Shown piece by piece: positions 315-55,673 of a stretch of 64,000 nt of DNA. Origin of the DNA: Sorex araneus (lineage: Eukaryota; Chordata; Mammalia; Eulipotyphla; Soricidae); assembly GCF_027595985.1 (NCBI RefSeq), contig NC_073306.1, forward strand, positions 160,840,651-160,904,650, in the 5' to 3' direction. A program made the position numbers and the translations under genes. The notes beneath the pieces are model-generated. The model searched no databases. It saw only the letters and a program-made list of their open reading frames with translations, and was not told the DNA's origin. Numbering within the stretch: position 1 is the first letter of the stretch; each line of letters starts with the position of its first letter.

Positions 315-510
315 CTGGATAATGAGCTTCGTGAAGGGTTCGGTGATAACCTTCAGAAGGGCTGGGGCATCTTCTCCATTCTGGAAGTCGAAGGACTTTA
401 ACACAAAGTCAGTCAGGAGCTCCAGGTAATGCGTGGCGGCCTCCAGGGGCAAGAGCACTAATACGGTGAGCCAGTTGAAGAAGTCATGGACAGTGGCCCC
501 TGCAAAAGCC
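315..510 (-). CDS. SLC34A2: Left copy, exon 7
   Basis: The acceptor is cttctttag and the donor gtaaca. It encodes [20 protein letters not shown] and then [20 protein letters not shown], with [20 protein letters not shown] near the end. The conserved VHDFFNW motif is intact. This is the last exon before the left edge; 1-314 is intron with nothing else recognisable. Confidence 0.93.
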
Positions 511-3500
511 CTAAAGAAGGGAACCCCGCCCAGGTCAATAGGCTTGTGAGTCAACGAGCAAATGGGCACCATTCTAGACAGTGCTGTGCTATCAGCTGCC
601 AGGTGTCACCCCTGTGCATTGTGTGTATACCTCATCTTTGCCCTCACAGCCAAATCCATGGGTGCTAGTCAGAGTTCCTTGAACCAATGAGGATTCTCAG
701 TGCTGAAGCCGAGGGGCTCAGGGTTGACTGCACGGGCACTACCTATGGCCTGTCTCCCCCTGCGAGGCAAAGCCCTTCCCAGCTGAAGCAGCTCTTGGGC
801 CTCTTAGGGAAAGGCGGCTGGAGGTGTTACAGCTGTCCAGTGAGCTCAGGGAGATATTTGAGAGATTCCATCAGTCCTTCTTTGAATCATGCATATTGAA
901 GACTTATTAACAATGTGTGAATTCGTACGAAGCTCCACCAGTGAAGAGCTGACCAGTAGTCTTCATCCTCTTGTAAAGATGTTAAGACTGATAAGACTCG
1001 AGGCAGTCTGGAGCCAGAGCAATAGGATAGTGGATATGGTGCTTGCTTGGCACGCAGCCACCCCGGGTCCATTCCCTGGCATCTCATGTAGTCCCTTGAG
1101 CCTGCCAGGAATTATTACTAAGTGTAGTGCCAGGAGTAACACCTGAGCATCGCAGAGTGTGGCCCAAAAACAAAAAAAAAATTTTTTTTAAATGAGGTGA
1201 GGGGAATGTGAAGCAGTCCTCACAGGTGTTCCCAACAATCTACATGTATGCAGAAAGTTTCCTTGAATTCCATCCTACATGCCAATTAGGAAACATTGCA
1301 TTTCTTTTTTTCCTAAATAAAAATAAATTCCAGGGGGGCTGGAGCAATAGTACGCGGGTAGGGCGTTTGCCTTGCACAGCAGACCCGGGCTCGATTCCCA
1401 GCATCCCATATGGTCCCCTGAGCACCGCCAGGGGTGATTCCTGAGTGCAGAGCCAGGAGTAACCCCTGTGCATTGCCAAGTGTGACCCAAAAAGAAAAAA
1501 AAAATAAAAATAATAAATAAATAAATTCCAGTGCCAGAGTGATAGTACAGTGTGGAGGGTGCTTGCCTTGCATGTGGCTAACTGGGGTTTGATCCTCGCA
1601 TTCCATACAGCCCCCTGAGTACTACTAGGAGAAATTTCTGAATGCGGAGTCAGGAGTAACCCCTGAGCACCACCAGGGGTGGTCCCCAAGCCAAGATAGA
1701 AAAAATTTATAAAACAATAAAAGAATTTTTTAAGTGTAACTAGATGTCTAAAACAGTCAAATACAAATGGAAAATAAACAGAAAAAAGTAAGTTTAAAGT
1801 CACTAATAACAGAAAATAGTTAATTGCTTATTTTTAAAAGTTTTCACCTAGCATATTAACTAATATGTCAGAAAGAAACTTATTCTTCAGGAGAGGTCAC
1901 TAAAATACTTTTTTTTTTATAACACTAACCATGCAAAGTGAACAAAAATATTTCATTGTATTTGGAAAAATATCTTAGTTAAATGTGCTTGATACCGCAA
2001 ATTTTGTTCTAGAAATCTAAGGACATAGTCCAAACCATCAGAAAGAAAGAACTTCCGGGGCTGGAGCAATAGCACAGCGGGTAGGGCATTTGCCTTGCAC
2101 GCGGCCGACCCGGGTTCGATTCCCAGCATCCCATGTGGTCCCCTGAGCACCGCCAGGGGTGATTCCTGAGTGCAGAGCCAGGAGTAACCCCTGTGCATCG
2201 CCGGGTGTGACCCAAAAAGCAAAAAAACAAACAAAAAAAAAAACAAAAAAAAAAAGAAAGAAAGAACTTCCTTCCCAAGCATACCATGTGAGTGAAGTCA
2301 CTCAGTAGAGGGACAGACACAGAATGTGTCTTATGTGGGATAGAGGGAAACATAGTAAGGAAACAGCAAATGGCCAAAGACAAGGAACCTGAAAAATTCA
2401 GGTCAACAGAACTGAACTTACCCAGCAAGGGAGGTGAGGGGCAGGGGTGAGTGGGAGGGGACCCTGAAACAATGGTGAGGAGAAGCAAGCACTCTGCTGG
2501 AGGGTGTGGGGCTGGAACCTTGTATGCACAAAACCCTATCATTGACAGTATTTAAATCAAAATACCCAAAATTTAAAAAAAATTTTTTTTGGCTTTTTGG
2601 GCCACACCTGGCAATGCTCGGGTTACTCCTGGCTCTGCACTCAGGAATTCCTCCCAGAGGTGCTCAGGGGATCATATGGGATGCTGGGGACTGAACCCAG
2701 GTCAGCTGCATGTAAGGCAAATGCCCTCCCCATTGGACTATCACTTCAGCCCCTAAAATTAAAATTTTTTAAAAGTGTATTGGATGGCCAAAGGTATAGC
2801 ATAGCAGGTAGGGTGGCCAACCTGGGTTTGATTTCTGGCATCCCATCTTTGCCTGAGCATCATGAGGAGTGAACCCGAAGCTTAGTAACGCCAGGAGTAA
2901 GCCCTCACCGCTGTTGCATGTGGCTCCAAAACCAGTGGGGGGAAAGGTATATTACAGCATGAGGTAATTGTCTATCATTTGTCTATAAAGTAAAAAAAAA
3001 AAAAAAAGGCCATGCATTTAAAGATCTGAAATGGGATAACCTATATCAGTCGTGTCCTTAGGTGCAGGCTTCTTCAGAGATTGTGTATGTTTATGTTCAT
3101 ATATTTTCTACCTGGAGACAAAAATCAGTATCACCAAGAGAAGAACCTACAGTCTGAAACAAGAAACATGGATAGATCACAAGATTCATAATGCCCAGTT
3201 ACTGCTACAGGAATCGAATGGAGGAGCACAGAATGTTGAGCCCACCGTTCCTCAAAATCAATACGATGGGCTGTGGATTACTGTGAGAACCTCGTAGCGT
3301 TTCAGCAGGGAGTTGGGAGGTTTAGATCAGAGGTTCCGAGGGGCCTCTGCTGCCAATCACTGAAGGAGGAAGCTGATGTCCCCTGGACCTTGGCTATGAA
3401 TAGCGCCTGCGGGCCAAGCCCAGAGGCACAGGGAGGCTGGACACTGGTTACACTCCAACCAACTCTGGGTGAGCCCAGGGTGAGTAGAAAGAAGCCTGAG

Positions 3501-6500
3501 AGGCGTGCTGGCTGTTCACACTAAGCATTGTCACTGTCACTGTCATCCCGTTGCTCATCGATTTGTTCGAGCGGGCACCAGTGACGTCTCTCAATGTGAG
3601 ACTTATTGTTCCTGTTTTTGGCATATCCAATACGCACGGGTAGCTTGCCAGGCTCTGCCGTGTGGGCGAGATACTCTCGGTAGCTTGCCGGGCTCTCCAA
3701 GAGGGGCGGAGGAATCGACCACAGGTCGGCCGCATGAAAGGCGAACACCCTACCGCTGTGCTATCGCTCCAGCCCACACCAAGCATTAGGAGGGGAAAAG
3801 ATTCCCTGTCTACAACCACCCCATGCTCAGACCCCACAGCCATGCGGATGCACGGTTCGCCTTCTGTGGGCATGTGGGTGAGGACGGGGAAACAACCCGG
3901 TGGGGCCGCCCAGTGGAGGCGGTGGGAGCTGTCACTAACCGCCACGGGGCAGGACCCCTGTGCTGAGTGGCCTTGTTGGAGCCTCACGCCCCCGCAGGGC
4001 CTCCGGCTGGGGCTGCTCTGAGGGAGCCCAGCTCGGCACCTGGCCGCTCTCTGAGCTCTAACCTGTCCGGGAGAGGGTTCAAGCCTTAAACACAGCTCTG
4101 CAGCAGCCACTGTGACATCCCTGCAAGTGAAGCAAAAGGTGGGGCACAGCAAGAACCCACACAGCATCCTGGGTCCTTGGTCGTGGTGTCCCCCACCTCC
4201 ACCCCCCAGTGGGATTTTGTGGTGAGTATAAAATAACGAAAACAAGCATTGATTTAAGGAGAGGGAGGGGGCTTGGATCGAGAGTCCAGCGGGGAGGGCA
4301 TTTGCCTTGCATGTGGCCGACCCAGGTTTGATCCCCAACATCCCATATGGTTCCCTGAGCACCACCAGGAGTCATTCCTGAGTGCAGAGCCAGGAGCAAT
4401 CCCTGTGCAGCGCCAAGTGTGACCAAACCCTCCCCCCAAAAAAAGAAAAGGGGAGGGAGAAAGAAAGTACCCAACGGGGGATAAAGGAAGTGCTCAGTGA
4501 GGAAAAGAGGAAGTAGAGAAGAAAATCCCACCAGCATGGCACGTGGGGATCTGGTCGGGTGGATCTTGACACAGGTGGGCCTGACTTTGCTATGATAATA
4601 TAATGATTGCACAATGAGCTAGAGGTGTCAGCGGTCACCTAGGCCTGACCTAGGCTTGCTCCTGGGTTATAACAAAGGGAGAGATCGCTTAGGGGGGTCA
4701 TAAAACTCGGGTAAAGTCTTTACTACCCTAAATTAAGACAGTGCCTTGCTCGGAGCCTCGCTGCTGGGCAGTTCATTAACCTTGTACGCCCTTCTCCATC
4801 CTATCCCAAGCTCGCCCGAGCTCACACGAGCTCACACCTGTCGTATGCTCTCTGCCTATCTAACACCCACTGCTCTGCAGATCAGGGATTGAGCCTACTG
4901 GTCTGAGTGTGAACCCAGCCTCCAGCCTTCTTCCAGGAGCTGCAGCGGGCCCGGGAGAGCTCCCGTTGGCTAGAGGAAGGGGGATTCACAAGCTGGCCAA
5001 ACCCAAGGAGCTGGGCCGACCCGGACGGGTTCAGCACCTCTTACCTTCTGAACTCTTTGCGGTCCCCGGCCTGCATGAGCGCCACGATGGTGTTGGTGAT
5101 GGACGTGCCGATGTTGGCCCCCATGATGATGGGGATGGCGGCCCGCACGGTCAGCACTGGGGGGAGGGCAGGGGCCGCGTTAGGCGTGGAGGGAGCAGCC
5201 TGGCAGGTGGCCCCATGCAGGAGGGTCTCCTTATCTTGCAGCACTTGCTCATCTCGGAGGGGGGCTGCACCCCGCTGGGCTCTGATGAGCACGTGGGCTG
5301 ATGCCCATGGAACTGTGCCCAGGGACCCCCACAGTCCCAGCACGCAATTCCAGGGAATCCATGGACTGCACAAGACCCTTCTTTGAACCCATTTTAAATG
5401 CCTTTGTAATTTGTTTCTTCTCCACATGACAGATACTAGGCAGCTTAAAAGACAGCAGGAGGTGTTTAAGGACTCCCGTATTTATATTGGAAAAGTCTCA
5501 ACTAAGCCCAGAGCAATTATCAGGTAAATTCTAGTTTGGCACATCAGCTCCACAAGCTCATCAAAGTGCGACATCCTCATAATGTCTACGTTATGAAACA
5601 TGGAACACCAAAGTGTAATGTTCTTATAATGCTGCATTCCAAGAACCGACGAAGGGAATGGTGATCACTATCACAAAGAACAAGTGATATTTGAAATACA
5701 GCTACCACAAGGGAATAGTAGAATACTGTATTTCAATATAAATTCCGCATAGGTTAAATCACAAAGCCACATGGCTAGTAGTTGTTAGGGCAGAAAATTC
5801 AAAGTTGAGTCTGCAAGCATTAGGGTCCACTTTTAGACCAATGTCAGGGGGTTGAGAATAGGATATGGCCAGGAACCCCGTGCAATAGAGCCTGGCGTAG
5901 GATGTATCCCAAGTGCATCCTCGCAGATGCCAGTGGGCTATGAGAAACCTGGCACATGTCTGGGCTGCTGGGCCTGGACTCACGTGACGAGGCCACCATG
6001 CTGACGATGATGGATGTGGTGGTGCTGGAACTCTGGATCAGGGCGGTCACCAGCACTCCAATCACCATCCCAGCCACCGGGTTGGACATAATCGAGTTGT
6101 TGCTGAAGAACTGCCCAGCCACTTTTCCTGAAAAACAAACGCATGGCCCCGGCATTGGGGTGAGGGCAGATGTCTCAGCCAAGGCTGTGGGTATGTGTGT
6201 GTGGGGGGGGAGGAGGGAACCCTCAGCCATGCAGGGGGCAGGGGAAGGGAGCACCTTCCCTCTGCTCCTCTCCCAGCCCCCCAGCCCTCCCTGGGGCCAT
6301 GTCTCCAGCTCTGACCTCGCTCCCCCATCCCGCATGAATTCCTCTGGTCTGTTGGCACCAACTCTCCGCCCCCCTCCCCGCTGCTCCCCGCACCGCCCCG
6401 TGTCACTAAGCCATCCTCTAGCCCTCCCGATCCTGCACGGGGTCTCATGGATCCTCCTGGCTCCCCAGGCCCTTCGGATGGTCTCAGGGTGAGCCCCCAG

Positions 6501-7702
6501 CTCAGCAGATGGAGCCCCCAGGAGGAAAACGAATCACTCCTCCTCTGCCTTCCCCCCACCCACAGGCTCAGCCCAGTCACTTGAGAACTGGCCTCAAGTG
6601 GATCCTCCAGTGTGTGTGACCCAGGAGACAGGGCCCAGGGGTGGAGCTGAACAGCTGAGACAGGCAGGGGCAAAGGCTGCAGAGATGCCACCTACATCCA
6701 GGGGACCGGAAGTGGGACCGGAAGCTCACACTGTGCCATGGGCTCCTTCCTCCATCGCCAGGCCCAGGGACCCATCAAGTCAGACACCAGGAGTACAAAA
6801 GCGCATGGTCTCTGATCCTTCTAGACCAACACAAGCTCTGGGCCAGTCCCTGCTCCCGTCTGCAGGCACCTATGCCCTGTCTGAGCCCCTGACTGGTTTT
6901 CTCTTCTCTCACGGGGCAGAGATAATACAAATGACCGAGAGGGTCCAAGTCAGAAAGCTGCCGCTGGAGCTGGGTGTGTCAGACCCACAGCGGGGGACTC
7001 TTAGCCCTGAGCCCGCTGCCCCCTACCTCCGAGCAGCTGGAAGGCGCTGCTGAGGACGTCCAGGGAGCACACGAACAAGTAGAGAAACAGGAGGAGCGCG
7101 GTGAGCTTCCCGACCGCCTCCAGAACAGAGCAAAGCTTCCCTCTGGTGTCTTTCTCTGGAGGGAAAAGAGCGATTTTGGCAAAGAGCTCACAACACCCCT
7201 CCGCCAGAAATGGAAACTCCATGCACAAGGTGTGTAGGTGCCTCCGGGGCGGGTCAGCGGCACCCCTGCTTTGGTGGGGAGGGGAGAGGGGAGCCCACGG
7301 TGGCGGCACACGCAGCCCCGCACCCCACTCTCAGAGGCCCTCGCCCAGCACCCCAGGGCCTGTGTGTGTCCCCCGACACGCCTCCCCCATGTCTTCTGCA
7401 CTCGCCCGGGCCTCCGGGTCCTGGGGGTGGCACCCTGGGCTGCTGGGTGTCCAGGCCCCGCTGTGCCCAGCCCCTCCTAGCACAGGGGCACAGGGGTGCC
7501 CTCACACTCGCAGCCGCACTGCGCAGGTCCTGTCCTCCTCGTGCCCCTGGGCAGGGGCAGGAGCCAGGGTGGGCCGAGGGCCAGCCCTGAGTGGGCACCT
7601 TTGCTGGGAAAGAAAGAGCAGATGCCCCCTCTTCCCCCACCCGCGCTTGGCTGGCTCTCAGCCTTGCCCCAGGCTCCCAGCAGGGGTCTTGGAGCCTGGT
7701 GT

Positions 7703-7758
<56 letters not shown>

Positions 7759-8147
7759 GGGGGAGGTGCTGTGACACGGAGCCCAGGCCTGAGACCTGGG
7801 GTGACAGTGTCAGCCCCCTCTTACCTGACCACTTAGGCCCTGTGTCCTGCAGCGCGGGCAGGTCCCAGGGGTCTTCTGCGGGGTCCTCGATGAGCGCCAC
7901 TGTGGAGTGGGACGGCAGCAGGTCCCCCTTGGTGGCAGAGGCCCCGCTGTCACCTGGGCAAATGTGTGAAAGGGGCCGTGAGGGTGGGTGGGCTCCAAAG
8001 CGTCCCTCCCGGGAGCTCTGGGGGGGCGAGGGGACACTTACTTTTGTTGGGCTCCTTGCCTTTCTCGGTCACGGGGGGCTGGGGACCCCCTTCGATGTAC
8101 ATACCGGAGTTCGCCTGGGCATTCTGCAGCTCGGGCCGAACAGCCAT
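315..8147 (-). CDS. SLC34A2: SLC34A2 sodium/phosphate cotransporter, left-hand copy, 5' part (6 coding exons, truncated by window edge)
   Basis: Second copy of NaPi-IIb, transcribed leftwards. Coding exons in transcript order: 8147-8042, 7953-7825, 7155-7027, 6127-5984, 5156-5045, 510-315. They total 816 nt (272 codons) in one open frame, and each exon has the same length as its partner in the right-hand copy. The remaining six coding exons must lie beyond the left edge. The start is [11 protein letters not shown], against MAPWPEL in the other copy. QSSST, GANIGTS, QAGD and VHDFFNW are all intact, so the visible part looks like a normal transporter. Compared with human, the most deviant stretch is the first half of the exon at 7027-7155. 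Whether the unseen 3' half is intact cannot be judged here. Confidence 0.92.
1008..1190 (+). mobile_element. Degraded SOR SINE
   Basis: It is recognisable from gagccagagcaatagg through taacacctgagcatcgc and the A tail, with many substitutions. Confidence 0.7.
1336..1527 (+). mobile_element. SOR SINE
   Basis: It is full length with an A-rich AAAT tail. A more degraded copy in the same orientation follows directly (1531-1705), and another older one lies at about 1008-1190. Confidence 0.88.
1531..1705 (+). mobile_element. Degraded SOR SINE
   Basis: The body matches the family (tgccagagtgatagtacagt and on to taacccctgagcaccacc), but the tRNA part is eroded. Confidence 0.7.
2057..2255 (+). mobile_element. 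SOR SINE with 16 bp target-site duplication
   Basis: It is a full-length element with a tRNA-type B box (ggttcgattcc) and an A-rich tail. GAAAGAAAGAACTTCC lies at 2041-2056 and again at 2256-2271. Confidence 0.92.
2290..2580 (+). mobile_element. Degraded L1 3' fragment
   Basis: The G-rich 3' UTR type sequence (gtgagtgaagtcactcag, then gggaggtgaggggcaggg) resembles the other L1 ends in the window. Confidence 0.5.
2588..2752 (-). mobile_element. SOR SINE
   Basis: It starts from its T-rich side (tttttggctttttgggccac) and ends ggactatcacttcagcccc. A weaker plus copy follows at about 2786-2935. Confidence 0.85.
3524..3775 (-). mobile_element. Second-family SINE (tRNA head plus 'tagcttgccaggctct' body)
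   Basis: It ends in the same tRNA-like head as SOR (gctatcgctccagccc), but its body is different: paired tagcttgcc(a/g)ggctct units and a cactgtcactgtcat terminal run. Related copies lie at 37035-37290, 48000-48392 and 54404-54670. Confidence 0.8.
3895..4067. repeat. Inverted-duplication block B, left arm (intron 6)
   Basis: It pairs in reverse complement with 44813-44980, with long runs nearly identical (around the part reading ggaggcggtgggagctgtca). Confidence 0.75.
4268..4446 (+). mobile_element. SOR SINE
   Basis: It is full length with a short A-rich end; the first part of the head is shortened. Confidence 0.83.
5045..5156 (-). CDS. SLC34A2: Left copy, exon 6 (GANIGTS motif)
   Basis: The acceptor is ctccccccag and the donor gtaagagg. 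Its protein is identical to the right-hand exon 6, with one silent base change that I can see. Confidence 0.94.
5984..6127 (-). CDS. SLC34A2: Left copy, exon 5 (first QSSS motif)
   Basis: The acceptor is gtttttcag and the donor gtgagtcc. It encodes [20 protein letters not shown] and then [20 protein letters not shown], close to human throughout. The copy on the other arm differs strongly in the first half. Confidence 0.93.
7027..7155 (-). CDS. SLC34A2: Left copy, exon 4
   Basis: The acceptor is ttccctccag and the donor gtaggg. It encodes [20 protein letters not shown] and then [20 protein letters not shown]. The first half diverges from human and from the other copy; the second half is nearly identical to the other copy at base level. 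This half-and-half pattern is worth noting. Confidence 0.91.
7700..7757. repeat. (GT)n in intron 3 of left copy
   Basis: It is homologous in position to the (AC)n(ACGC)n run of the right copy at 41528-41602. Confidence 0.95.
7825..7953 (-). CDS. SLC34A2: Left copy, exon 3
   Basis: The acceptor is tttgcccag and the donor gtaaga. It encodes [20 protein letters not shown] and then [20 protein letters not shown], differing from the other copy by two residues (A for P, P for L). Confidence 0.92.
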
Positions 8148-9739: not shown

Positions 9740-10180
9740 TGGGGGCTCCAGTGAGGCACATTTTCCAAATACTCAACAAGGAACCGATTCAGGAACCGCC
9801 CACCCAGGAGAGCAGGAGAGAGCCGAGAAGGGAAGCCCCATGCTCAGAGCTGACACATGCATCTCTGATGGCTCAGGGCGGGGAGAGGCAGCTTCAGGTG
9901 ACGGATTCCACAAACAGAGGATGCTGCCTCCTTTCCTGACTCTGAGCCCTCATCAGTGCCCCCCCGCACTCAGCACCCAGGGCACATCCTGTAAGCCATG
10001 CCCTCAACCCCCACTGTCCCCCTCTGCCTTGCATCCCCAGGAAGCCACACAAACCTCGATTTTCAGCACTGGACAGTCCTACTCCCCCTCTCTGGAGACA
10101 CTGAGGCACAGGGGCTCACAGAGTCCTCCCTGAGGTCGCTGAGCCAATGAGGAAGCAACGAAAGGGACCAGCCTTCCTGC
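9740..10180. repeat. Inverted-duplication block G, left arm (intron 1)
   Basis: The part at about 9740-10075 pairs with 37470-37790, and 10079-10180 with 36185-36275, all in reverse complement. In the right arm the two parts are separated by inserted SINEs and an L1 fragment. Both lie in intron 1 of their copy. Confidence 0.7.
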
Positions 10181-10264
10181 TCCCTCCCTCCACCCCATGC
10201 TTTCCGCACCAGCACCCCATAACCATAGATCACCTGCAAGTTTAAAACCCAAAGTGTGGTGATA

Positions 10265-10904: not shown

Positions 10905-10927
10905 CAGAAGGTGTGAGCTGGGCTCTG

Positions 10928-19748: not shown

Positions 19749-19779
19749 CCCCAACAGTGCTCGATGAGGCCTGCTCCCC

Positions 19780-24159: not shown

Positions 24160-24257
<98 letters not shown>

Positions 24258-24297
24258 CTCTCTCTCTCTTTCTTCCTTCCTTTCATTCTTTCTTTTG
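23690..24297. repeat. 600 bp polypyrimidine tract at the inverted-duplication axis
   Basis: The plus strand is almost only C and T: CCCT and CCTT units, then CTTT units from about 24150. Long reading frames here are repeats of Leu, Pro, Ser and Phe and are not genes. Mirror symmetry favours triplex structures. Confidence 0.95.
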
Positions 24298-41134: not shown

Positions 41135-41243
41135 ACCATGGCTCCTTGGCCCGAGCTGCAGAATGCCCAGGCGAACCCCAGTACATACATCGAAGGGGGT
41201 CCCCAGCCCCCCGTGACCCAGAAAGGCAAGGAGCCCAACAAAA
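41135..41243 (+). CDS. SLC34A2: Right copy, exon 2 (ATG exon)
   Basis: The acceptor ccacccacag is followed by acc and the ATG at 41138; coding ends AAC AAA A before gtaagtg. It encodes [13 protein letters not shown] through EPNK, the cytoplasmic N-terminus. The start is chosen by its match to human MAPWPEL and by the acceptor three bases before it. Confidence 0.93.
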
Positions 41244-41551
41244 GTAAGTGTCCCCTCGCCTCCCCAGAGCTCCCGGGAGGGACCCCGCGGAGCCCACCCA
41301 CCCTCACGGCCCCTGTCGCACGTTTGCCCAGGTGACAGCGGGGCCTCTGCCACCAAGGGGGACCTGCTGCCGTCCCACTCCACGGTGGCGCTCATCGAGG
41401 ACCCCCCAGAAGACCCCTGGGACCTGCCCGCGCTGCAGGACACGGGGCTTAAGTGGTCAGGTAAGGGAGGACTGACACTGTCACCCCAGGTCTCAGGCCA
41501 GGGCTCCGTGTCACAGCAGCCCCCCCCAAAACACACACACACACACACACA

Positions 41552-41602
<51 letters not shown>

Positions 41603-44600: not shown

Positions 44601-47600
44601 GTCAAGTGCAAGGCAAACGTCCTCCCTGCTGTGCTCCCCCCCCACCCCATCCTCTGCCCTGTCCCAGCTCCTCAGTTTGACCAGATTATGGGCTCCCCCT
44701 GCCCCCAGCCAGTGGGCACTCCCCCAGCCCTGCTGGAGCTTCCAGAGGGAGGGGGGGCGAGGAAGGCTGGAGGTTCAACCCAGCCCCCAGTTAACCCTGC
44801 GTTAACCCCGACAGGTAAGAGCTCAGAGAGCCGCCAGGAGCCGAGCTGGGCTCCCTCAGAGCAGCCCCAGCTGGAGGCCCTGCGGGGGCGTGAGGCTCCA
44901 ACAAGGCCACTCAGCACAGGGGTCCTGCCCCGTGGGGGGTAGTGACAGCTCCCACCGCCTCCACTGGGCGGCCCCACCCGGGCCACTCCCTGCCCCCCCT
45001 TGTCTTCCCCACCCGCTCCCGTCCATATATCTCACATGCTATAGCCCATTGCCCTATCTGCTGGGCTCTTAAATAGATTTTTCTATGCTTCATTTTACTC
45101 CTGTGAAAATGCAAAGCACTTCAGTGGCACTGCTGAGGGTCACAACAGGGAGTCCGTCCAGGCTTCTTTATTTCAGACTGTGGTTTCTTTTCCCTGTTAC
45201 ACTAATGTTTGCCTCTGGATAATCTCTGAAACACAAACATAACAATCAATTAAGGTTCCTGCATGTGGGACATTACTGATGTAGCTCACATTCTATCAGA
45301 ATATTGAAACAAACTGCTATCAGGGCTGGCTTTGGTTACAAGGAGTTGGGATTACATCTTTATTGATTCCCAGAACCATTACCATATCAGACATCTATAA
45401 GACTCTGTAAACATTTTACCAACCTGAAGAAATATGTGCAATCACTTGTATAAAACTATCTAAAACATCATATCCCAGGAAAATGAGCTATTTAAAAAAA
45501 ATTAGATAACAGGAGAGGTAAAAATTTGTGCTTATAAATAGGCATTGCAAATTAATCTCTCTTACTATTAGTGTGATTAAAGCATTTCCCCTCATATATT
45601 TATTGGTTTCTGTTTGTTCATGGTCTATTTTTATTGAAAGGTGTTTGATATACACTATTGTTTTGACTTTCTCCTTCTTCTCTTTATTTTCGGTTTTGGG
45701 GCCACACCAAAAGTGATGGCTGGTGTGATGGCTGAGGAGTTACTCCTGGCTCTGTAATCAGGAATTACTCCTGGCAATGCTCAGGGGACCATGTGGGATG
45801 CTGGGGATCAAATCAGGATTGGCTGTGTGCAGACCAGCGCCCCTAAAAGCTGTACTATCTCTCTTATAAAGATAATCCTAGATTTATTTCATCTTTTTAT
45901 TTGGGGAGAAAGGAAAGTTTTTGGGTCATGCCTGGCAGTGCTCAGAGGCTACTTCTGGCTCTGCTCAGGAAACCAAATACCGTGCCAGGGATTGAGCCAG
46001 GGTCAGCCACAGGCAAGGCAAGTGCCTTAACCAATGAATCATATACTTAGTTCGTTGCATCTTATTCTCAGCCAAATATTTGGAACACCAAGACGTTTCC
46101 ATTTCCTTTTTGCCCTGTGTTTGACGCTTGGGGCCTTCGGGACCAGTTGTTCAGTTTTGTGCCATCAGGAAGCAAAGACACGGGAAGCACAGTTCTGAGT
46201 TCTTCCTGTTGACCCCCTCCCCACCCATAAGACCTGACTTCAGGGACAGAGTAAGAGCTACAACTGCTCACAGAGGTTTCCCTAGACAGCTGCCAGGGAA
46301 TGGAGGGGGACCTCAGAGGCTTGCTCGCACCCTCCAAACTCCAGCCCGGAGTGATTCAGAGAGGGCTAGGAGAGAGGGGGCAGCTTTTGAAGTCATGCCG
46401 CACAGCTCACTCAAGAAGTAATTCTTGTGGGAGCAGCACCATGGGGGCTGCCATCTCCGGCCCATTCTCGTGTTTCTTCTAGGAAACTTAGGGAAAAATA
46501 AAATCTGAAGTCTAGTTCACCTGGGATGGAATTCAAGGGGGATCTCATGCAAATTGTGATAATAAAAACCTGGGTTTCAGGTAGAAATTTCAAATGTTTC
46601 AACAGAACCTGAAGATATTTTTCAAGAGTTTGAGAGTTCACTTTTGGGGTGGGAGAGACAGTGCAGCAGGTAAGGCATTGCCGCGCATGCAAGCCTCCTT
46701 TGTTCAACCTTCTATGCCACAAATGACCCCCCAGCACCTCCAGGAGTGATCCCTGAACAGAGAATCAAGAATAGTCCCTGAGTACTGCAGGTTCGATCCC
46801 CCAACCCCACCAAAAAAATGCATTTTTGTCTGGGCTTTGATGATTCTCTCCATACTTTCCCCACCTGTTCAAAGAGCATTGCCAGCAATAGATACAACAC
46901 AAAATTGGTCTGGTGCAGTTTTCCAACAGGTATCATTGAGCTGATACACAGTTCTGATGTGTATGATTCCTTTTGCTCTGAGCATAGAAATGAGGGTTGT
47001 GTGATTCGGATCTCACAAGTAGGAGGAGAGAGGGGTCCAGGGAAGGACTGTACAGGTTTGCTGACTCTTTTTTCCACTGGTCCGAAGGAAGATCAACAAC
47101 ACACACTATCTTTATTATTATTTATTTAAATCACCATGAGATACACAGTTACAAAGTTGTTCATGATTGAGTTTCCGTCATACTCCCATGATTCCCATCC
47201 CTTCACCAGTGTATGCTTCCCACTGCCAATCAACAACACCCACTTAGGAGATTATTCTAGGAATCACCCTTTATTAGGCAAAGGGTATAATATAGAGGTT
47301 AGGGCACTTGGATGGCCAGTGGCCACTTCAGTTCAATCTTCAGCATCACAATATGATCCCTGAGCATCATCAGGGGTTGCTCCTGTGCACAAAGAGAGAA
47401 ATTAACCCTGAGTACCACCAGGTGTGGTCCACGCCCCCACCTTTAGTTAGAAATGGAAGTGATACATATGCAGGTGCTCACCGAGGTGACACTGGGCAGC
47501 TGATACATAATGTGCTGCTGCGGCCTGTGTCCTCTGGCCCATCAGCTCACCTGGATGTTGGGCTGGGCTGGGCTCCCGCCCTAGGGCTTTTGCAGGGGCC

Positions 47601-50600
47601 ACCCTTGATGACTTCTTCAGCTGCCTCACCGTGCTGGTGCTCCTGCCCCTGGAGGTCGCCACCCACTCCCTGGAGATGCTGGCCTACCTGGTGCTGGACT
47701 CTTTCCCCTTCTGGATCGGAAGAGATACCCCAAGCCTCCTGAAAGTCATCACAGAGCCCTTCACGAAGCTCATCATCCAGGTAGCCCAGCTCGATTCAGA
47801 GCGGGAAGGCCCCGGGCCCTGTGCTTGCCCCATTCCCCCACTCAGTGGGCCAAAAATAATAGAGGGGAAGACCCCCCTGGAAACCACTTACTGGGTCTCT
47901 CTGAAAAAAGCCCAGAGACAGAACTTGCAGGGATAGCTGACAGAGTAGAAGACTTTTGGTTTGTTTGTTTATTTTTTTCTTTTTTGGGTCACACCCAGCT
48001 CCCGGACATCTAATAGCCTAGTTCTCCCTCTTAGAGAGCCTGACAAGTTACTAAGACTCTATTGCCTGCACGGGAGAGCCTGGCAAGCTCCCTGTGGCAT
48101 ATTCATATCCCAAATACAGTAAAAGATATATACATACCTCTCAGAGAGTCCGGAGAGCTACTGAGAGAATCCTGCCCACACGGCAGAGCCTGGCAAGCTA
48201 CCTGTGGTGTATTTATATGCCAAAAATAGTAACGATAGGTCTCATTCCTCTGACCCTGAAAGAGCCTCCAATTGTTGGGAAATATGAGTAAGGAGAGGCT
48301 GCTAAAATCTCAGGGCTGAGTGTAATAGAGACGTTACTGATGCCCGCTCAAGTAAATCGACGAACAATGGGATGACAGTGACAGTTATACAGTGGGTCAC
48401 ACCCAGCAATGCTCAGGGAATACTCTTGACTCTGGAGTCAGGAACTACTCTTGGCCGTGCTTGGGGAACCATATGGGATGCTGGGGATCGAACCCTGGTC
48501 AGACCTACCCACTGTACTATTGCTCCAGCCCCTGAGTAGAAGACTTCAGTTTTTGTTTTATTGACTTCAACCCGTGTCATCTTTATTGGGAGAGGGGACA
48601 GCACATGGCAGTGCTTCCAAGGACCCCCATGGTGAACCTGGGGCAACTTTTTTCCCATTGGTCACTGACAAGGATGATCTGACTCCTACCCAAAGTAGAA
48701 GTGAGCTCCCCTTCCCTTTTAAGGGTCCTCTGAAGCCTCTGGTCGCCAGCCTCTGTTCTCTCTGGGATCAGTGAATGCTGGAGAGATAGATTAGTAGATT
48801 GTATCACGTGCTGGAGGCCTAACCACTGCACGACCACTAAGCTTGGAGCACGGACTGGACACGCAGGAGACCCAGCTTTGGTCCCTAGCACTGCATGGTC
48901 TCCAGGTACTGCGGGAGTGACATCTAAGCACTGAGTTGGGAGTAGCCCTTGAGCACTATCGGGTACAACCAATACAACCAAAAACTCATTGCTTGGGGCT
49001 GGGGAGAGAATACCGGATGAAAGTTGTGTGTCTTGCACAGGGCCAACTCTGGTTCAGTCCCCAGCACCACAGGCGAACCCCCAAACAACACCAGTAGTCA
49101 CCCCTAAGAACTGGGCCAGAATAGATGTTGAACATGCTTGGGCATGGCCTACCTCCATTTCTCCAAATTAATTAGCCATATTTAATTAGTGAAAAAATAT
49201 TTGATAGGGGCTGGAGCCATAGTACAGCAGGTAGGGCATTTGCCTTGCACGCAGCCGATCTGGGCTCGATCCCCAGCATCCCATATGGTCCCCTGAGCAC
49301 CACTAGGAGGAATTCCTGAGTGCAGAGCCAGGAGTAACCCCTGAACATCACTGTGTGTGATCCAAAAAGTCAAAAACAATCAAGCAAACAAAAATATTTG
49401 GTAGGTGTTGGCCTGGGAGAAGGGGCTTCTGGTACTGGACATATTGGTTTTCTCTGTTATTATGTGGTCCATGGGTGCTGCACCACTCTTGCTCTTATGT
49501 ATCGGATTTTGTTCATACAATAAGTTGCTTATTTGTCAAGTCCTTGCTAAAGGGTAGGAGGCACAATGCACCCTGGAAGTGCAGCTGGAGGGGCCGGCTC
49601 ATTCTCGGGGGTGCTGAAAGTCAGGTTTATGATCTTAGTGTCTGGACAGCAGCCCTCCCTCTTCAGCCTGCACCTCTTCTTCCATTTCCTCTTCCAGCTA
49701 GATCAAAACGTTGTCAACAAATTGGCATTGGATGATGAGGAAGCCCTAAACAAGAGTCTCATCAAGATTTGGTGCAAAACATCTATCAACATGGTAAATT
49801 TCTAAGAATATTGCTGGTAAAAAGCACAGTAGAAATGATATCTGTAGCTACATGTTCATTGCAGCACTGTTCACAATAGCCAAAATCTGAAAACAACCCG
49901 AGTGCCCGAGAACAGATGACTGGTTAAAGAAACTTTGGTACATCTACACAATGGAATACTATGCAGCTGTTAGGAGAGATGAAGTCGTGAAATTTGCTTA
50001 TAAGTGAATAGACATGGAGAGTATCATGCTATGCGAAATGAGTCAGAAAGAGAGGGATAGACATAGAAGGACTGCATTCATTTGTGGAGTATACAATAAC
50101 ATCACGTAAGGCTGACACCCAAGGACAATAGATACAAGGGCCAGGAAGATTGCCCCATAGTTGGAAGCCGGCCTCATGAGTGGAAGGGAGAGGACAACTG
50201 GAATAGAGAAGGGATCACTAAGAAAATGAGGGGTTGGAGGAATCAGTCGTAATGGGAGATGTATGCTGAAAGTAGATAAGGGACCAAACATGATGACCTC
50301 TCAGTATCTGGATTGCAAACCATATGCCCAAAAGGAGAGAGAGAGTATGGGGGATATTGTCTGCCATGGAGGCAGGGGGAGGGTGGGAAAGGGGGGATTA
50401 TAGTGAGGATACTGGTGGTGGGGAATGTGCACTGGTGGAGGGATGGGTGTTTGATCATTGTGAGATTGTAACCCAAACATGACAGCTTATAACTGTCTCA
50501 CGGTGATTCAATAAAATTTTATAAAAAGAATTTAAAAAATATTGCTAGAGAAGGAAACATTTGTATCCATACTCTAAGCAAATCTTCATAGAGAAGGGGA

Positions 50601-53600
50601 GAGGAAAGAAAAAGATAAATAGCTGAAAATACAAACACAAGGACAAACCTTAAGGGCTATTCTTGCATGTTGAGTGCGAGGTACCGCGTGGGACAGAGAG
50701 AAGAGCAGAACGACCAGAGCTCTCTGTGCCACGCAGCTTTCCATTTTCTGCTGGCCTCATGGCTTGCCTTTGGCTGCTCCTCTGCCTTGCTGGGGGTATC
50801 AGGTTTATAGACACACACTCTGTGTGGGCATTGCTCTCTGCGCCACACGGTGCCCGCTGCTCTCACCAAGAACGAGCACTGTTATGTCCCATCTCTTGGG
50901 TACACTCCAGGTCCAGAGGAACGTCACTGTGCCCTCACCTGAGAGCTGCACCTCCCCTGACCTCTGTTGGACGGATGGTTCTCACACCTGGACCCTCAAG
51001 AATGTGACCTACCAGGAGAACATCGACAAATGTGAGTGGAACTGAACATCAGCCGCTGGGAAATCTCTTCGGGGTGTCTGCTCTTCTCCTTCCAGCCCGC
51101 ACCCCCGCTGGTCCTGAGCATCAGACCTTCAGGGTCCTGGTGGAGTTACCACTCAGAATCCAGAGAACTTACCACCCCGCAGACCAGTGACAGATCCAGC
51201 GACGCAGCCAGGGGCAGGTGGAGTCTGGTGGGGACTGCCAGGGAGTTTGGAAGATGAGGAGTTTCAGAATGGGCAACACTGTCCTCTGACCTGGTCACCG
51301 TTCCCAGCTTTGTCCCCAGACCCTTTGTTGTCATTATCCTCAGGGCCGTGAGTGAGGCACAACACAGGCTTCAGAGGCGGGTCAGCCTGGCGGGAGGCCT
51401 GGCTCTGCCCCTGCCCAGCCTGTGGCTTCAGGGATTTCGCTTCATCTCCAGCCTCTGGGGCTCCCCCAGGGAACAGCCTCGGGGCTGCATTCACCTGCCA
51501 GAGGCTGGGAAGTGCGGCCTGTCTTCTGGGTAGCTCTGGGTCTAGCACATAAACAGGGATAACTACCAGGGGGCAAAGGGTGTTGGGGATATGTAACGAT
51601 ATGGCCTTGGGGTTGCCCCGTGTCCCCTACTGAGGGCTTTCACTCTCATGGTCTCCTAGGCCAGCACATCTTTGTGAATTTAAACCTCTCGGATCTGGCT
51701 GTGGGCATCATCTTGGTGATTGTCTCCCTGCTGGTCCTCTGTGGCTGCCTCGTCATGATTGTCAAGATCCTGGGCTCCGTGCTCAAGGGGCAGGTGGCTG
51801 TTGTCATCAAGAAGATCCTCAACACAGGTTGGTGCAGTGTCACCTACATCCACTGCATCATCTACTGTATGACTATGGACGAGCCAGGTAGAGGCTCAGA
51901 GAGTCTTATATCTAGTAGTTCTGCAGACTGGAGGACCAGTTTGAAGGTGCCACTTGGGCTGGGTGTACTTGCAGACCTGCTTCCTGGTTTACAGATGGCC
52001 ACAGCAGAGAGGAAGCAAACGTTCTCTTGTATTATCAGGACTCTGATGCATTTATGAGGGTCCTGCTGCATGACCAAATTACCCAAAGGCCCAGCTCCTC
52101 CTATTATCACCCCAGGAGGGTTTCAGTGTAGGAAATTTGAAAGAATACAAACTTTCAGTTTGTAAAAGGTGGGCTTAATATTCTTAGTTTCTGACAATTA
52201 GTAAATATGCAGTTTTGTCTTTACATCACCCAGACCTTGGTTCTGCCATCTCAATATGAAACATATTGTGATTCTACAAATTTTGACGGCCAGGGAGTTC
52301 ATATAGGCGTTAGTGCATATACCTAGCATGTACTGAACCTCAACTTAACCCCGGTTCAAACCCTGCTTCAATGCCCCGCCTCACCCCCAAGCCTTGCTGG
52401 GTATAGCCCTGGAAGTCCTGGTCTTGAGCACCTTCAGGTATGGTTCTGGTGTTGTTGGCACCAGAGTCGGAGCAGCATCACCTCCTCAAGGCCTTAGCAT
52501 TGGCCTCGCTTCCTGAGAATCACCAGGAAAGGATATTGGGGATCCTTGAGAATTTCTTGGGTGTCAAAAAAAAAAATTAAAAGGGCTAATTTTCAGTTGC
52601 AGAATATGGTGTGGGGTGGGTCACACCTACCCCACCTAATCTTCTCACCCAGACTGTGCCTCCTTGGTCCTTACAGGTGCCACCCGGGCCTCCATCCCAC
52701 GCTTTCTCTTTCCTTCTGTCTTCCAGACTTGCCCTTTCCCTTCGGCTGGGTGACTGGCTACCTGGCCATCCTCGTGGGGGCGGGCATGACCTTTATTGTG
52801 CAGAGCAGCTTCGTGTTCACGTCTGCTATGAACCCGCTGATTGGTGAGTGTCCCCCGACTTCTCCCCCAGGCCACCATTCTCCTCCTCATCATTTCCTGC
52901 CATTGGTGCTCTGGATTCTGTATTCCTCCCTCCCCCAGGTCTCGGCGTGATCTCCATTGAGAGGGCGTATCCGCTCACGCTGGGCTCCAGCATCGCCGCC
53001 ACCGCCACCGCCATCCTGGCCGCTCTGGCCAGCCCAGGCAGCACTCTGAGGAGTTCGCTCCAGGTCAGAGGGCGCAGGGAATACAGTTCATCAGTGATAA
53101 TATAGGGAGATAGTGTCAAACAAGAGACTTCCCCCTGGCATGTCCAAAACTGGTATGAAGAAGTAGCCACAGGGAGACAGGTTTGAGAACAGCCAGTGCC
53201 TTCTTTTTAGACAAGTAGATAGAGTCTTAGCTGCAGGGATGCCATCACAGGCAAGGTAGCACTTGATGGAGAAATAATGCATTTCCAGGAAGCAGACACC
53301 ACTTCCTGTCTCCTCATATTCCTCTTAGGGGACTTGGGATGGATCTGGGAAGGCCATTTGTGGGTATTGCAAGAAGAATCAGAGGGTCTTTCCTTGCGTA
53401 AAACAGTTAAGCGTGCTCCAGCAAGAAGGACTTCTGGTCTTATATCTTATGCCACCATGTCTATGCGTTGTGCCTTAACCTATGAGAAAGTTTCCTCTGG
53501 TGATAAATAAGACTCACAATCCCTACTTCATAAGGAATATTATAAAGATCTCATGAAGACATCTAAAGTTTGAGTCTTAAAGAGTTACAGTGTGTGAAAA

Positions 53601-55673
53601 GAATATAAATAGGAGTGACAAATGTATTATAAGTTTTCTAGTAGTCACAAATTAAAAAGTGGAAAGAGGGGCCAGGGTGACAGTGCAGTGCGAAGGTGCT
53701 CACCCTCCAGGGGCAGACCTGGGTTCTATCCCCAACATCCCCAACATCCTCTATGGTACCCTGGCCACCACTAGGCATAACCCTGAGCACAGAGCTGGGA
53801 ATAAGCCCTGAGCACTATTGCACATGGCCCCCAAACAATAACAACAACAACAATAATAATAAGTGGAAAGAAACAGATATCTTCCATCTTTCCACTGGTA
53901 ATGTCTGTGTTATTATAGCTTATAACTGATATTAAAATGATATGGCATTTCACATCTTTTTTTGGACTGTCTTTGAAACTCTGAGCACATTTTGCACTTA
54001 CCACCCAGTACAGAGCCTTGAGCCCCCAGGTCGACCAACAGTCCGTCATGGACACAGGTCTCGCGTTCCAGTGCCTGTTTCAAGTGCTCAGCTGGTGCAG
54101 GGGGCAGGCTGCTAAGGAATCAGATAGGGCACACCAAGCCCCTACCACGATCTCTGGTACATGGTAGGTACACAGAGAAAAATGGTGAAGTGTATGACCT
54201 CCAAAGGCAAGCAACTGAAACCCAGCTGCAACAGCTCCTTTCCTGGAAAAATCCTTACAACTTTGGAAAAATTCCTTCACATGCTGCTCCAATTTCCTTT
54301 CACATCAAATGGGGATTATAGGGGTGGGCATTTCGTAGGATATTTTTGGTTGATTAGAGTAGCCCATGGAAAGTGTGTAGGGTAGTTTTTAACCTCACAA
54401 ATTCATCATCATCCCGTTGACCGTCGATTTTCTCAAGTTGTCTCAGTAACGTCTCCACCCATCCTAGCCCTGAGATTTTAGCAGCCTCTCTTTACTCGTC
54501 CTTCCCAACAGTGCCACATGGAGGCTCTTTCAGGGTCAGGGGAATGAGACCCAGCTTGTTACTGGTTTTGGCATAGGATTACTCCACTGGGAGCTTGCCA
54601 GGCTCTCCCATGTAGGCAGGAAACTCTGGGTAGCTTGCCAGGTTCTCCGAGAGGGAGAACTAGACTATAAGATGTCACTTCCAGGAGCTTGGTTTTATAG
54701 TCTCTGGATGTTGACGGTGATGGGATTACATGGCGCTGGAGACAGTTTCTGGGTATGACTGCCTAGCAACTGAAAAATGGGGGGTCTTGGTGGAGGAGGC
54801 CCAGTCCCAGTCCAAGCAGGCTTGGAGATCTCAGCCCAGGGTCCCACACACCTGGGTTCCTCTGCAGGTTCCTTCATGCTTGAGGCGTGTCCGAATGTGT
54901 GGAGAGGGCCTTGAGCATGGCTGTGGCTGGGTTCCAGAGGTCTTTGGCTGCCGGGGCTCTATTTGAGGCAGGGAGGGAAACTCAACCCACCCCCTCCGAG
55001 GGGCCCCGTGAAGACGGCCAGGAGAGAGGCAAGAAACTCTGTGACAGGTATACCTGTAGGCGGCCCCTTCTCCCCCCACGGTCCCACTCACCCTTCCCCC
55101 TCTGTTGTGTTGCAGATCGCCCTGTGCCACTTTTTCTTCAACATCTCTGGCATCTTGCTGTGGTACCCCATCCCGTTCACCCGCCTGCCCATCCGCCTGG
55201 CCAAGGGGCTGGGCAACATCTCCGCCAAGTACCGCTGGTTTGCTGTCGTCTACCTCATCGTCTTCTTCTTCCTGACCCCGCTGGCCGTGTTCGGGCTCTC
55301 GCTGGCGGGCTGGCAGGTGCTGGTGGTCGTGGGGGTGCCTGTCATCCTCGTGGTCGTGCTGGCAGTGGTCATCGGGCTCTTGCAGTCCCGCTGCCCGGGG
55401 CTCCTGCCCAAGAAGCTCCAGAACTGGGACTTTCTACCCCTGTGGCTGCACTCGCTGAAGCCCTGGGATGAGGTGGTGTCCAGGCTCACCAGCTGCCTCC
55501 AGAAGCGTGGCCACAGGTGCTGCGAGAAGCTGGAGGAGGTGCAGGGAGAGCCCAGCAAGAGCTCCACGGGCGTGGATAACTTGGCCATGAGCAAAGAGGC
55601 TCCAGATGGGATTCCCTTGTCCCAAGTGAGAAGCCTGGACACGAGCACTATCCTGCACAACACAGCTTTGTAA
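41138..55673 (+). CDS. SLC34A2: SLC34A2-like sodium/phosphate cotransporter, right-hand copy, complete (12 coding exons)
   Basis: Type II sodium-phosphate cotransporter (NaPi-IIb), an apical membrane protein that couples Na+ to inorganic phosphate uptake in gut, lung and gland epithelia. Coding exons: 41138-41243, 41332-41460, 42180-42308, 43319-43462, 44312-44423, 47585-47780, 49698-49793, 50911-51031, 51660-51827, 52727-52843, 52939-53063, 55116-55673. They sum to 2001 nt, 666 residues plus TAA; human NaPi-IIb is 690. All introns are GT-AG and phases agree. The start MAPWPEL and the C-terminal TAL match human NaPi-IIb. Visible motifs: QSSST at residues 153-157, GANIGTS at 182-188, a large cysteine-bearing extracellular loop at about 273-344 with NxS/T sites at 290, 308 and 335. 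Odd: the second QSSS is QSSF (426-429), the IGTTTT segment is altered (455-464), the exon 7 motif is altered, and the cysteine-rich tail is shortened. Family identity is sure; transport activity is doubtful. Confidence 0.93.
41332..41460 (+). CDS. SLC34A2: Right copy, exon 3
   Basis: The acceptor is tttgcccag and the donor gtaagg. It encodes the N-terminal cytoplasmic tail with the family signature [16 protein letters not shown] (human DPWNLPTLQDSGIKWS). The preceding intron is only 88 bp, and its partner in the other copy is also exactly 88 bp. Confidence 0.93.
41528..41602. repeat. (AC)n(ACGC)n in intron 3 of right copy
   Basis: The first part is AC and the second part ACGC, both alternating purine-pyrimidine, so Z-DNA is possible. 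The left copy has only the dinucleotide form. Confidence 0.95.
42180..42308 (+). CDS. SLC34A2: Right copy, exon 4 (first membrane segment)
   Basis: The acceptor is ctccccccag and the donor gtaggg. It encodes [18 protein letters not shown] and then [20 protein letters not shown], close to human NaPi-IIb throughout. This copy is nearer to human in this exon than the left-hand copy is. Confidence 0.93.
42475..42806 (-). mobile_element. Two adjacent SOR SINEs in intron 4 of right copy
   Basis: An older copy spans 42475-42620 and a younger, near-consensus one 42632-42806. Neither is seen at the matching place in the left copy, so both may postdate the duplication. Confidence 0.8.
43029..43206 (+). 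mobile_element. SOR SINE in intron 4 of right copy
   Basis: It is full length. The flanks are cagagggcaggcgg and cagaggacaggcgg. It has no counterpart at the matching place in the left copy. Confidence 0.9.
43319..43462 (+). CDS. SLC34A2: Right copy, exon 5 (first QSSS motif)
   Basis: The acceptor is cttttcag and the donor gtgagtg. The second half, [16 protein letters not shown], keeps the first of the two QSSS motifs of the transport core. The first half ([19 protein letters not shown]) is unlike both human (KMAGQFFSNSSIMSNPLLG) and the left-hand copy, so change is concentrated there. Confidence 0.92.
44312..44423 (+). CDS. SLC34A2: Right copy, exon 6 (GANIGTS motif)
   Basis: The acceptor is cctcccccag and the donor gtaagagg. 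It encodes [18 protein letters not shown] and on to [10 protein letters not shown], identical in protein to the left-hand copy. I see only one base difference over 112. The QAGD aspartate, which I recall as linked to electrogenic transport in NaPi-IIa/b, is present. Confidence 0.94.
44490..44645 (-). mobile_element. SOR SINE in intron 6 of right copy
   Basis: It runs from tttgggatcacacccagtgg to ctgctgtgctcccc. Confidence 0.72.
45690..46048 (-). mobile_element. Two SOR SINEs in intron 6 of right copy
   Basis: The first spans about 45690-45868 with an internal duplication (tgatggctggtg); the second spans about 45900-46048. Confidence 0.7.
46648..46818 (+). mobile_element. SOR SINE, diverged
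   Basis: The head is gtgggagagacagtgcagca, and the body ends at caggttcgatcccccaaccc and an A tail. Confidence 0.65.
47105..47245 (-). mobile_element. Short L1 3' fragment in intron 6
   Basis: It reads aaatcaccatgagatacaca and then cccatcccttcaccagtgta, an L1 end in reverse orientation. Confidence 0.6.
47585..47780 (+). CDS. SLC34A2: Right copy, exon 7
   Basis: The acceptor is cgccctag and the donor gtagcc. The usual [11 protein letters not shown] reads [11 protein letters not shown] here. The following helix and loop ([18 protein letters not shown]) also drift from human and from the left-hand copy. The end, [15 protein letters not shown], is conserved. The exon is 196 bp in both copies and the frame is open. 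Confidence 0.9.
47956..48533 (-). mobile_element. SOR SINE split by a second-family SINE
   Basis: The outer minus-oriented SOR element lies between GAGTAGAAGACTT at 47943-47955 and 48534-48546. It is interrupted at 48000-48393 by a plus-oriented second-family element, whose own target repeat GGGTCACACCCAGC lies at 47986-47999 and 48394-48407. Confidence 0.9.
48778..49140 (+). mobile_element. Two diverged SOR SINEs in intron 7 of right copy
   Basis: The copies lie at about 48778-48985 and 48996-49140, both in the sense direction and both eroded. Confidence 0.6.
49207..49390 (+). mobile_element. SOR SINE in intron 7 of right copy
   Basis: It is full length. The flanks AAAAATATTTGATAG and AAAAATATTTGGTAG differ at one base. 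Confidence 0.9.
49698..49793 (+). CDS. SLC34A2: Right copy, exon 8 (start of large extracellular loop)
   Basis: The acceptor is cctcttccag and the donor gtaaat. It encodes [20 protein letters not shown] and then [12 protein letters not shown], matching human up to CKT. An NKS glycosylation site lies at residue 290. An L1 insertion begins only 14 bases after the exon. Confidence 0.88.
49816..50537 (+). mobile_element. 5'-truncated L1 in intron 8 of right-hand SLC34A2
   Basis: It is an L1 3' end in the sense orientation (tacacaatggaatactatgc region, then 3' UTR, then aataaaattttataaa). A short target-site repeat, AATATTGCT, lies at 49807-49815 and 50538-50546. It starts 14-22 bases after the exon 8 donor. 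Confidence 0.82.
50911..51031 (+). CDS. SLC34A2: Right copy, exon 9 (extracellular loop)
   Basis: The acceptor is acactccag and the donor gtgagt. It encodes [20 protein letters not shown] and then [20 protein letters not shown]. The loop cysteines and two N-glycosylation sites (308, 335) are kept. The human NWT site is HTWT here and so is lost. Confidence 0.9.
51660..51827 (+). CDS. SLC34A2: Right copy, exon 10
   Basis: The acceptor is gtctcctag and the donor gttggt, a weak but usable GT donor. It encodes [20 protein letters not shown] and then [20 protein letters not shown], a long hydrophobic segment close to human, ending [14 protein letters not shown]. Confidence 0.91.
52727..52843 (+). 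CDS. SLC34A2: Right copy, exon 11 (second QSSS motif, altered)
   Basis: The acceptor is tcttccag and the donor gtgagtg. It encodes [20 protein letters not shown] and then [20 protein letters not shown]. Human has QSSSVFTSALTPLIG. The third serine of the second QSSS motif is therefore phenylalanine at residue 429. Confidence 0.91.
52939..53063 (+). CDS. SLC34A2: Right copy, exon 12 (altered IGTTTT segment)
   Basis: The acceptor is ctcccccag and the donor gtcaga. It encodes [20 protein letters not shown], then [20 protein letters not shown] and Q. Human has [18 protein letters not shown]. The asparagine, the glycine and two of the four threonines are replaced; the flanks are unchanged. Confidence 0.91.
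53670..53865 (+). mobile_element. SOR SINE in intron 12 of right copy
   Basis: The head is ggggccagggtgacagtgca, and the tail consists of AAC/AAT units. Confidence 0.72.
54404..54670 (-). mobile_element. Second-family SINE, older copy
   Basis: It carries gggagcttgccaggctctcc and gggtagcttgccaggttctc. It has an extra middle segment (cctagccctgagattttagc) also seen at about 48290-48330. It lies in intron 12 of the right copy. Confidence 0.7.
55116..55673 (+). CDS. SLC34A2: Right copy, exon 13 (last coding exon)
   Basis: The acceptor is gtgttgcag and the stop is TAA at 55671. It begins [20 protein letters not shown] and contains three strongly hydrophobic stretches, then [20 protein letters not shown]. 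The human tail carries a long run of cysteines; here only [17 protein letters not shown] remains. The protein ends in NTAL, matching the TAL terminus of NaPi-IIb. Confidence 0.93.

Follow-up and report, generated by a model that had tools for sequence, protein, structure and literature searches.

The stretch of Sorex araneus DNA analysed here (64,000 nucleotides; hereafter the window) contains two SLC34A2-type genes that lie head to head on opposite strands and point away from each other, with start codons 33.0 kb apart. The right gene is complete: it occupies the + strand from 41138 to 55673, the end point claimed in the original prediction, and its 12 coding exons encode 666 amino acids with no internal stop, are separated by 11 introns that are all GT-AG, and specify a protein that matches a named Sorex araneus record (P0002) at 100% identity. 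The left gene occupies the - strand, where its first six coding exons run from 8147 down to 315 before the gene passes off the window edge. When joined, these exons encode 272 residues equal to residues 1-272 of Sorex araneus record P0004 (666 amino acids), and this database model extends beyond residue 272, in keeping with exons 8-13 of the left copy lying past the edge. No third SLC34A2 copy was found within the window by tblastn with four SLC34A2 proteins, and an Rfam scan of the window returned nothing at gathering scores.

Exons of both genes are numbered by what we take to be the human SLC34A2 scheme. On the - strand, the left gene comprises exon 2 (8042-8147, beginning with ATG), exon 3 (7825-7953), exon 4 (7027-7155), exon 5 (5984-6127, with the first QSSS motif intact as QSSSTTTS), exon 6 (5045-5156) and exon 7 (315-510, the last one inside the window). 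Their + strand counterparts in the right gene are exon 2 (41138-41243, with the ATG), exon 3 (41332-41460), exon 4 (42180-42308), exon 5 (43319-43462, diverged, first QSSS intact), exon 6 (44312-44423) and exon 7 (47585-47780), which is diverged and carries H220D, N224S, W225C, Y240S and T245A (human NaPi-IIb numbering). The right gene continues through exons 8 (49698-49793), 9 (50911-51031) and 10 (51660-51827), exon 11 (52727-52843; S434F, which turns the second QSSS into QSSF, and T441N), exon 12 (52939-53063; N462S, G464A and T465A) and exon 13 (55116-55673), which includes the stop codon and a tail without most of the Cys-rich cluster. All six exon pairs named in the original prediction are present on opposite strands, with equal lengths and agreeing reading frames and GT-AG splice sites, and the self-comparison that it proposed recovers them at E=0 to 1e-27; the head-to-head arrangement and whole-gene scale are likewise borne out, as is the assignment to a shrew. 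The coding starts, at 8147 and 41138, lie three bases inside the last pair as first drawn (8042-8150/41135-41243).

Outside the exons, the likeness between the two arms is less extensive than had been proposed. Introns described as matching do so in patches, and elsewhere most intron DNA no longer aligns. Nor did the claimed 25 kb or so of shared upstream DNA hold up: with interspersed repeats flagged, we found two well-matching blocks of ~0.3 kb at mirror positions and other matches that are weak and short (e.g., 41 bases at 24461-24500, E=0.08), most of the remaining upstream DNA being unaligned. The block at 19757-20007, upstream of the left gene, has its mirror partner at 29078-29341, upstream of the right gene (84%); the two sit 11.6-12.1 kb upstream of the respective coding starts and are candidates for a promoter or first exon. 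The weaker block at 9753-10063 has its mirror-position partner at 37470-37768 (69%). Most of the mirror-looking self matches come from an abundant short interspersed repeat of ~170 bases that is scattered window-wide (e.g., 2057-2229) and is presumably a shrew-type short interspersed element; a shared 25-kb upstream duplication was rejected on this basis. Mirror matches outside exons and interspersed repeats are few, namely weak intron blocks at 3041-3172 (71%) and 4938-5015 (73% over 79 columns), segments at 3896-4071 and 5002-5380, a stretch spanning exons 2-4, and the two upstream blocks. The arms therefore look old and mostly diverged, and we infer that the inverted duplication itself is old.

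There are two copies within the window, as predicted, but the databases list another Sorex araneus protein, the canonical P0005, which is encoded outside the window and makes three. Since P0002, P0004 and P0005 are each on a contig listed at 216,565,905 bases, the right, left and canonical genes are taken to share one chromosome. The duplication is thus inverted and of whole-gene scale, but it does not resemble a 25-kb duplication, and the pair is part of a larger set comprising three or more genes. For comparison, 129 distinct SLC34A2-type proteins were drawn from three protein searches (the 120 best rows of each); statements below that a residue is invariant or occurs only in certain proteins hold within these 129, several thousand lower matches lying outside the set. 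The right protein is 68% identical to human P0043 and 78% to canonical P0005. The Pfam domain Na_Pi_cotrans (PF02690; cut-off 29.1 bits) scores 96 bits in the right copy and 111.5 bits in P0004, which groups with shrew SLC34A2 in the tree. Neither window copy has the Cys-rich C-terminal cluster: the last 130 residues hold 4 Cys in both P0002 and P0004 versus 21 in P0005, and some other mammal and reptile rows are also Cys-poor. The premise that mammals usually have one SLC34A2 proved too strong, since at least eight listed mammals have two or three entries on equally long contigs. Among the matches listed, these are the two Sorex, Talpa (P0072/P0077), Condylura (P0073/P0085/P0112), Erinaceus (P0040/P0102), Nycticebus (P0016/P0031), Trichechus (P0051/P0063) and Dromiciops; multi-copy SLC34A2 is therefore found beyond shrews.

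The left and right coding sequences differ at 113 of 816 bases, and these differences are patchily distributed, DNA identity being 92.5, 96.9, 83.7, 78.5, 99.1 and 78.1% in exons 2-7, respectively. Synonymous divergence (dS; Nei-Gojobori, NG86) is 0.043 in exons 2+3+6 and 0.523 in exons 4+5+7, and the identity of exon 6 departs sharply from that of exons 5+7 (Fisher test, p=2e-9). The longest difference-free coding run was matched in 0.055% of 20,000 shuffles (p=0.0006), with p=0.02 for the longest such run in third positions alone. Three segments likely represent conversion tracts. The first, which may comprise more than one tract, covers exons 2-3 and introns (7290-8118) and matches 41167-42036 at mostly 88-96% per 100-base step, with two steps at 77-80%. 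The second, exon 6 with its intron flanks (5002-5380), is 96.3% identical to 44089-44465, the exon and intron flank reaching 98-99% per 100-base step, with one margin at 82% and a fall to 44-59% beyond. The third is an intron-6 block (3896-4071) that is 95.5% identical to 44806-44981, peaks at 97% and is bounded by steps of 48 and 39%.

Protein comparisons with the canonical copy and with the Sorex fumeus ortholog of the right copy (P0003) follow a similar pattern. Over exons 2-4 the right copy is identical to P0005 at 118 of 119 residues and to its ortholog at 96 of 119; over exons 5+7+8 the corresponding values are 95/144 and 131/145. Over the final 66 residues of exon 13, the right copy agrees with the left at 66/66 and with the ortholog at 24/66. 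A paralog is thus closer than the ortholog in some tracts and more distant in others, the mark of gene conversion, as judged from proteins and from left/right DNA. Because paralog-like outer exons combined with ortholog-like core exons are the pattern expected from conversion among copies in which the core is spared, we strongly infer that repeated short conversion tracts passed among the left, right and canonical copies. Weighing against this are the facts that conversion involving the canonical copy is judged at the protein level only and that the tail of the Sorex fumeus ortholog may be mis-modelled. The same patchiness could in principle arise without conversion if exons 2, 3 and 6 were strongly constrained, and identity in exon 6 indeed ranges from 92 to 100% across the eight protein pairs examined. 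We consider this very improbable because exons 2-3 are weakly conserved among orthologs (65-89%) yet 92.5-96.9% identical in left/right DNA, because silent sites and flanking introns are alike too, and because the end of exon 13 is shared between paralogs to an extent that it is not with the ortholog.

Trees built from different regions also differ. In a full-length tree of 40 rows Sorex fumeus P0003 is the partner of the right copy (100/100) and Suncus etruscus P0013 that of the left copy (100/99), shrew genes all fall together and mole genes all fall together; a quick tree of exons 2-4 clusters by species, placing the three genes of Sorex araneus together (supports 90 and 85). In the mole Condylura, paralogs P0073 and P0085 share a near-identical N-terminal stretch, which suggests that moles, too, have undergone conversion in the same exons.

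Assemblies are known to go wrong at inverted repeats, and a 0.6-kb TTCC array near the midpoint of the two genes (23702-24282) could hinder assembly, so that haplotypes or distant loci might have been joined as an inverted pair. Such an artefact is hardly credible here. The 113 coding differences, together with a dS of 0.52 in exons 4, 5 and 7, far exceed the haplotype level, on which ground the haplotype version was rejected; the upstream blocks lie at mirror positions; and the two genes have separate named records, with orthologs among the records of other species. Either a single copy or a misassembly, the outcomes that would have undone the original prediction, is unlikely for the same reasons.

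The diverged core of the right gene includes positions reported to bind sodium. For human NaPi-IIa, an excerpt of a review of NaPi-II models assigns Thr200, Gln206, Asp209, Asn227 and Ser447 to site Na1 and Gln417, Ser418, Ser419, Thr451 and Thr454 to site Na3 (PMC6325988). At the corresponding positions, the right copy carries N224S and T465A and keeps the other eight of ten. Letters are present at all ten positions in 127 rows: 91 of these change none, 34 change one (mostly S461A) and two change two, namely the right copy and P0003. N224S, S434F, T441N and an altered G464 are likewise confined to these two proteins, and only in them does the second QSSS read QSSF, the other 126 rows with a letter at that position having S. 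H220D and changes at W225, T245, N462 and T465 are found only in these two and in mole paralogs P0077 and P0085. In contrast to the right copy, left record P0004 keeps both QSSS motifs and all ten Na1/Na3 residues; its residues 1-272, with the first QSSS, are in the window.

Despite these changes, the right gene appears to be maintained. It shows no broken frame and no lost splice sites or introns that would mark a pseudogene, its 12 exons, 11 GT-AG introns and 666-residue frame being intact, and the Sorex fumeus ortholog is an open model of 664 amino acids with the same core changes. A decaying gene, that is, a young pseudogene whose frame is still unbroken, would fit the faster change of the core, since the araneus/fumeus identity over exons 5+7-12 is 287/319 for the right copy versus 310/318 for the canonical pair. 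This explanation is improbable, however, given the open Sorex fumeus model, the GT-AG ends kept in 11 of 11 introns, and the lack of stops: had the core exons drifted freely at half the left/right dS, about seven would be expected, whereas the count is zero (P about 7e-4), a rough estimate in which the rate is assumed and frameshifts are ignored.

Taken as a whole, it is probable that this head-to-head pair had its outer exons re-copied by conversion while the core diverged, and that the right copy no longer performs ordinary sodium-phosphate cotransport. The patchiness and the arrangement are observed directly; the loss of cotransport is predicted from sequence, and a regulatory role for the right copy is conjecture. 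An old inverted duplication of SLC34A2 would have been followed by recurrent short gene conversion among the left, right and canonical copies, which refreshed the outer exons; the core exons would have escaped conversion and diverged, and selection would hold the right gene open even though the residues for transport are no longer preserved in its core. The left copy, for which the database record has all ten site residues, is predicted to still transport, and the right copy would be a non-transporting or differently coupled member that, for example, pairs or competes with the canonical protein.

Several points weigh against loss of transport. The right copy retains D221 and R207, eight of the ten positions, the first QSSS in full and the QSS of the second, and S434, the fourth letter of that motif, is itself no listed ligand. 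A change at a single site occurs in 34 of 127 rows, S461A alone in 31 of 129, so transport need not be lost when a listed position changes, and S461A is evidently tolerated. The mole altered paralogs keep N224, and their T465 is changed merely to S. The NaPi-IIa and NaPi-IIb positions were matched by offset and residue identity only, and the AlphaFold2 model was poor (mean predicted local distance difference test score, pLDDT, 48) and was left unused. After the same duplication and conversion, the right copy might therefore still cotransport phosphate with shifted kinetics, for instance in another tissue, its substitutions being tolerated; the open frame, the retained positions, the frequency of single changes elsewhere and the Pfam score well above cut-off favour this alternative. 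We nonetheless consider it rather unlikely, because the joint change of N224, S434, T441, N462, G464 and T465 is unmatched elsewhere in the 129 rows, the two mole paralogs being changed at only N462 and T465 of these six.

The altered copies of shrews and moles share more changes than chance would predict. At 188 near-invariant positions, the shrew altered copies change 14 and the mole altered copies 15, with seven in common (hypergeometric p=1.1e-5); the strictest setting gives five shared of 141 positions (p=6.5e-4) and the loosest seven of 229 (p=2.6e-5). Among the 125 other rows, ten carry four or more changes of this kind, and in no case is there a comparable overlap with the shrew or the mole set (lowest p 0.052). 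Lesser values were obtained for shrew left-type against right-type copies (p=0.003, loosest setting), shrew left-type against mole altered copies (0.017, middle setting) and shrew against mole left-type copies (0.032). The shrew and mole altered copies may have either a common ancestor or an origin as two duplicates that lost the same constraint. In a tree of exons 5+7+8 they group (89/86, below star level). Against a common origin, the tree of exons 5+7-12 groups genes by family, with an approximately unbiased (AU) test p of 0.162 for a joint altered clade, and the full-length tree also keeps the shrew and mole altered copies apart. The power of the AU test is low, since a negative-control clade with human was not rejected (0.152 for exons 5+7+8 and 0.097 for exons 5+7-12). 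For the same two regions, in that order, AU values were 0.241 and 0.095 for left-type shrew and mole copies, 0.431 and 0.018 when hedgehog was added to these, 0.033 and 0.093 for canonical eulipotyphlans, and 0.238 and 0.071 for all non-canonical shrew and mole copies. A clade of all shrew genes had 0.100 in the first region and was recovered (91/97) in the second; for all mole genes these results were 0.222 and recovery at 94/89.

Because the region trees disagree, we make no claim of a single shrew/mole origin. It is a tentative and somewhat doubtful proposal that a single ancient pseudo-transporter derived from SLC34A2 predates the split of shrews and moles and is retained in both, with predicted-broken sodium sites, a frame held by selection and an age masked by gene conversion, which would repeatedly replace its outer exons with those of the neighbouring working phosphate transporter. 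An excerpt of PMC12940487 dates the split of above-ground and subterranean Eulipotyphla to 53.5-68.8 million years, which is taken to be the shrew/mole split. Non-canonical copies share other residues as well. Across the 129 rows, S227T is confined to eight of the nine (the hedgehog copy lacks it). The first motif reads QSSSTTTS (S163T) only in P0004, P0013, P0072 and P0102, non-canonical copies of shrew, mole and hedgehog; S163T is thus present in four of five left-type copies (Condylura P0073 is without it) and in no other row, this four-copy set having been named after the motif was seen.

The window also contains several simple repeats. Left intron 3 has a (GT)n run at 7699-7756, at about the matching place to a (CACG)n run at 41534-41602 in right intron 3. 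Purine-rich (AAAGG)n and (GGGAG)n arrays lie back to back at 58244-58514, directly after a short interspersed repeat, and a CA-rich unit of 354 bases is present in two copies with a 92% match at 60548-61265.

The window genes resemble canonical mammalian SLC34A2/NaPi-IIb in whole-protein homology and the Na_Pi_cotrans domain, with matches to entries for solved structures of slc34a2a at E=1e-233, but differ in their Cys-poor tails (4 versus 21) and, for the right copy, in QSSF and the changed site residues. Bony fishes also have two NaPi-IIb genes per genome, the slc34a2a/slc34a2b pair, which probably arose by a separate duplication. Gene conversion between inverted paralogs is known from palindromic gene pairs, where head-to-head copies are kept alike, as occurs here in patches; the shrew arms, by contrast, are mostly unalignable and their core exons stay different. 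Pseudo-transporters and pseudoenzymes can be retained after loss of active-site residues, and the right copy similarly has an open frame and changed site residues, as does its ortholog in a second species, although its loss of activity is a prediction from sequence. No SLC34 pseudo-transporter was among the matches listed in our literature search, and no record of the shrew SLC34A2 pair was found in open-licence PMC papers, among the matches listed; the paralogues in an excerpt of PMC9849193 are ordinary mouse genes. A duplicate with conversion and an altered paralog is therefore a known kind of system, of which no SLC34 instance was found in the literature searched.

The pair provides a compact case in which conversion likely homogenises the outer exons of inverted genes while the core escapes, and in which full-length trees may mislead on the age of duplication. 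Mutants with single substitutions have been used to probe SLC34 transporters. A natural paralog in which several near-invariant core residues are changed and the frame is open makes it readily testable which residues are required for transport, and the right copy also lets one ask whether transport-dead SLC34 proteins have a job.

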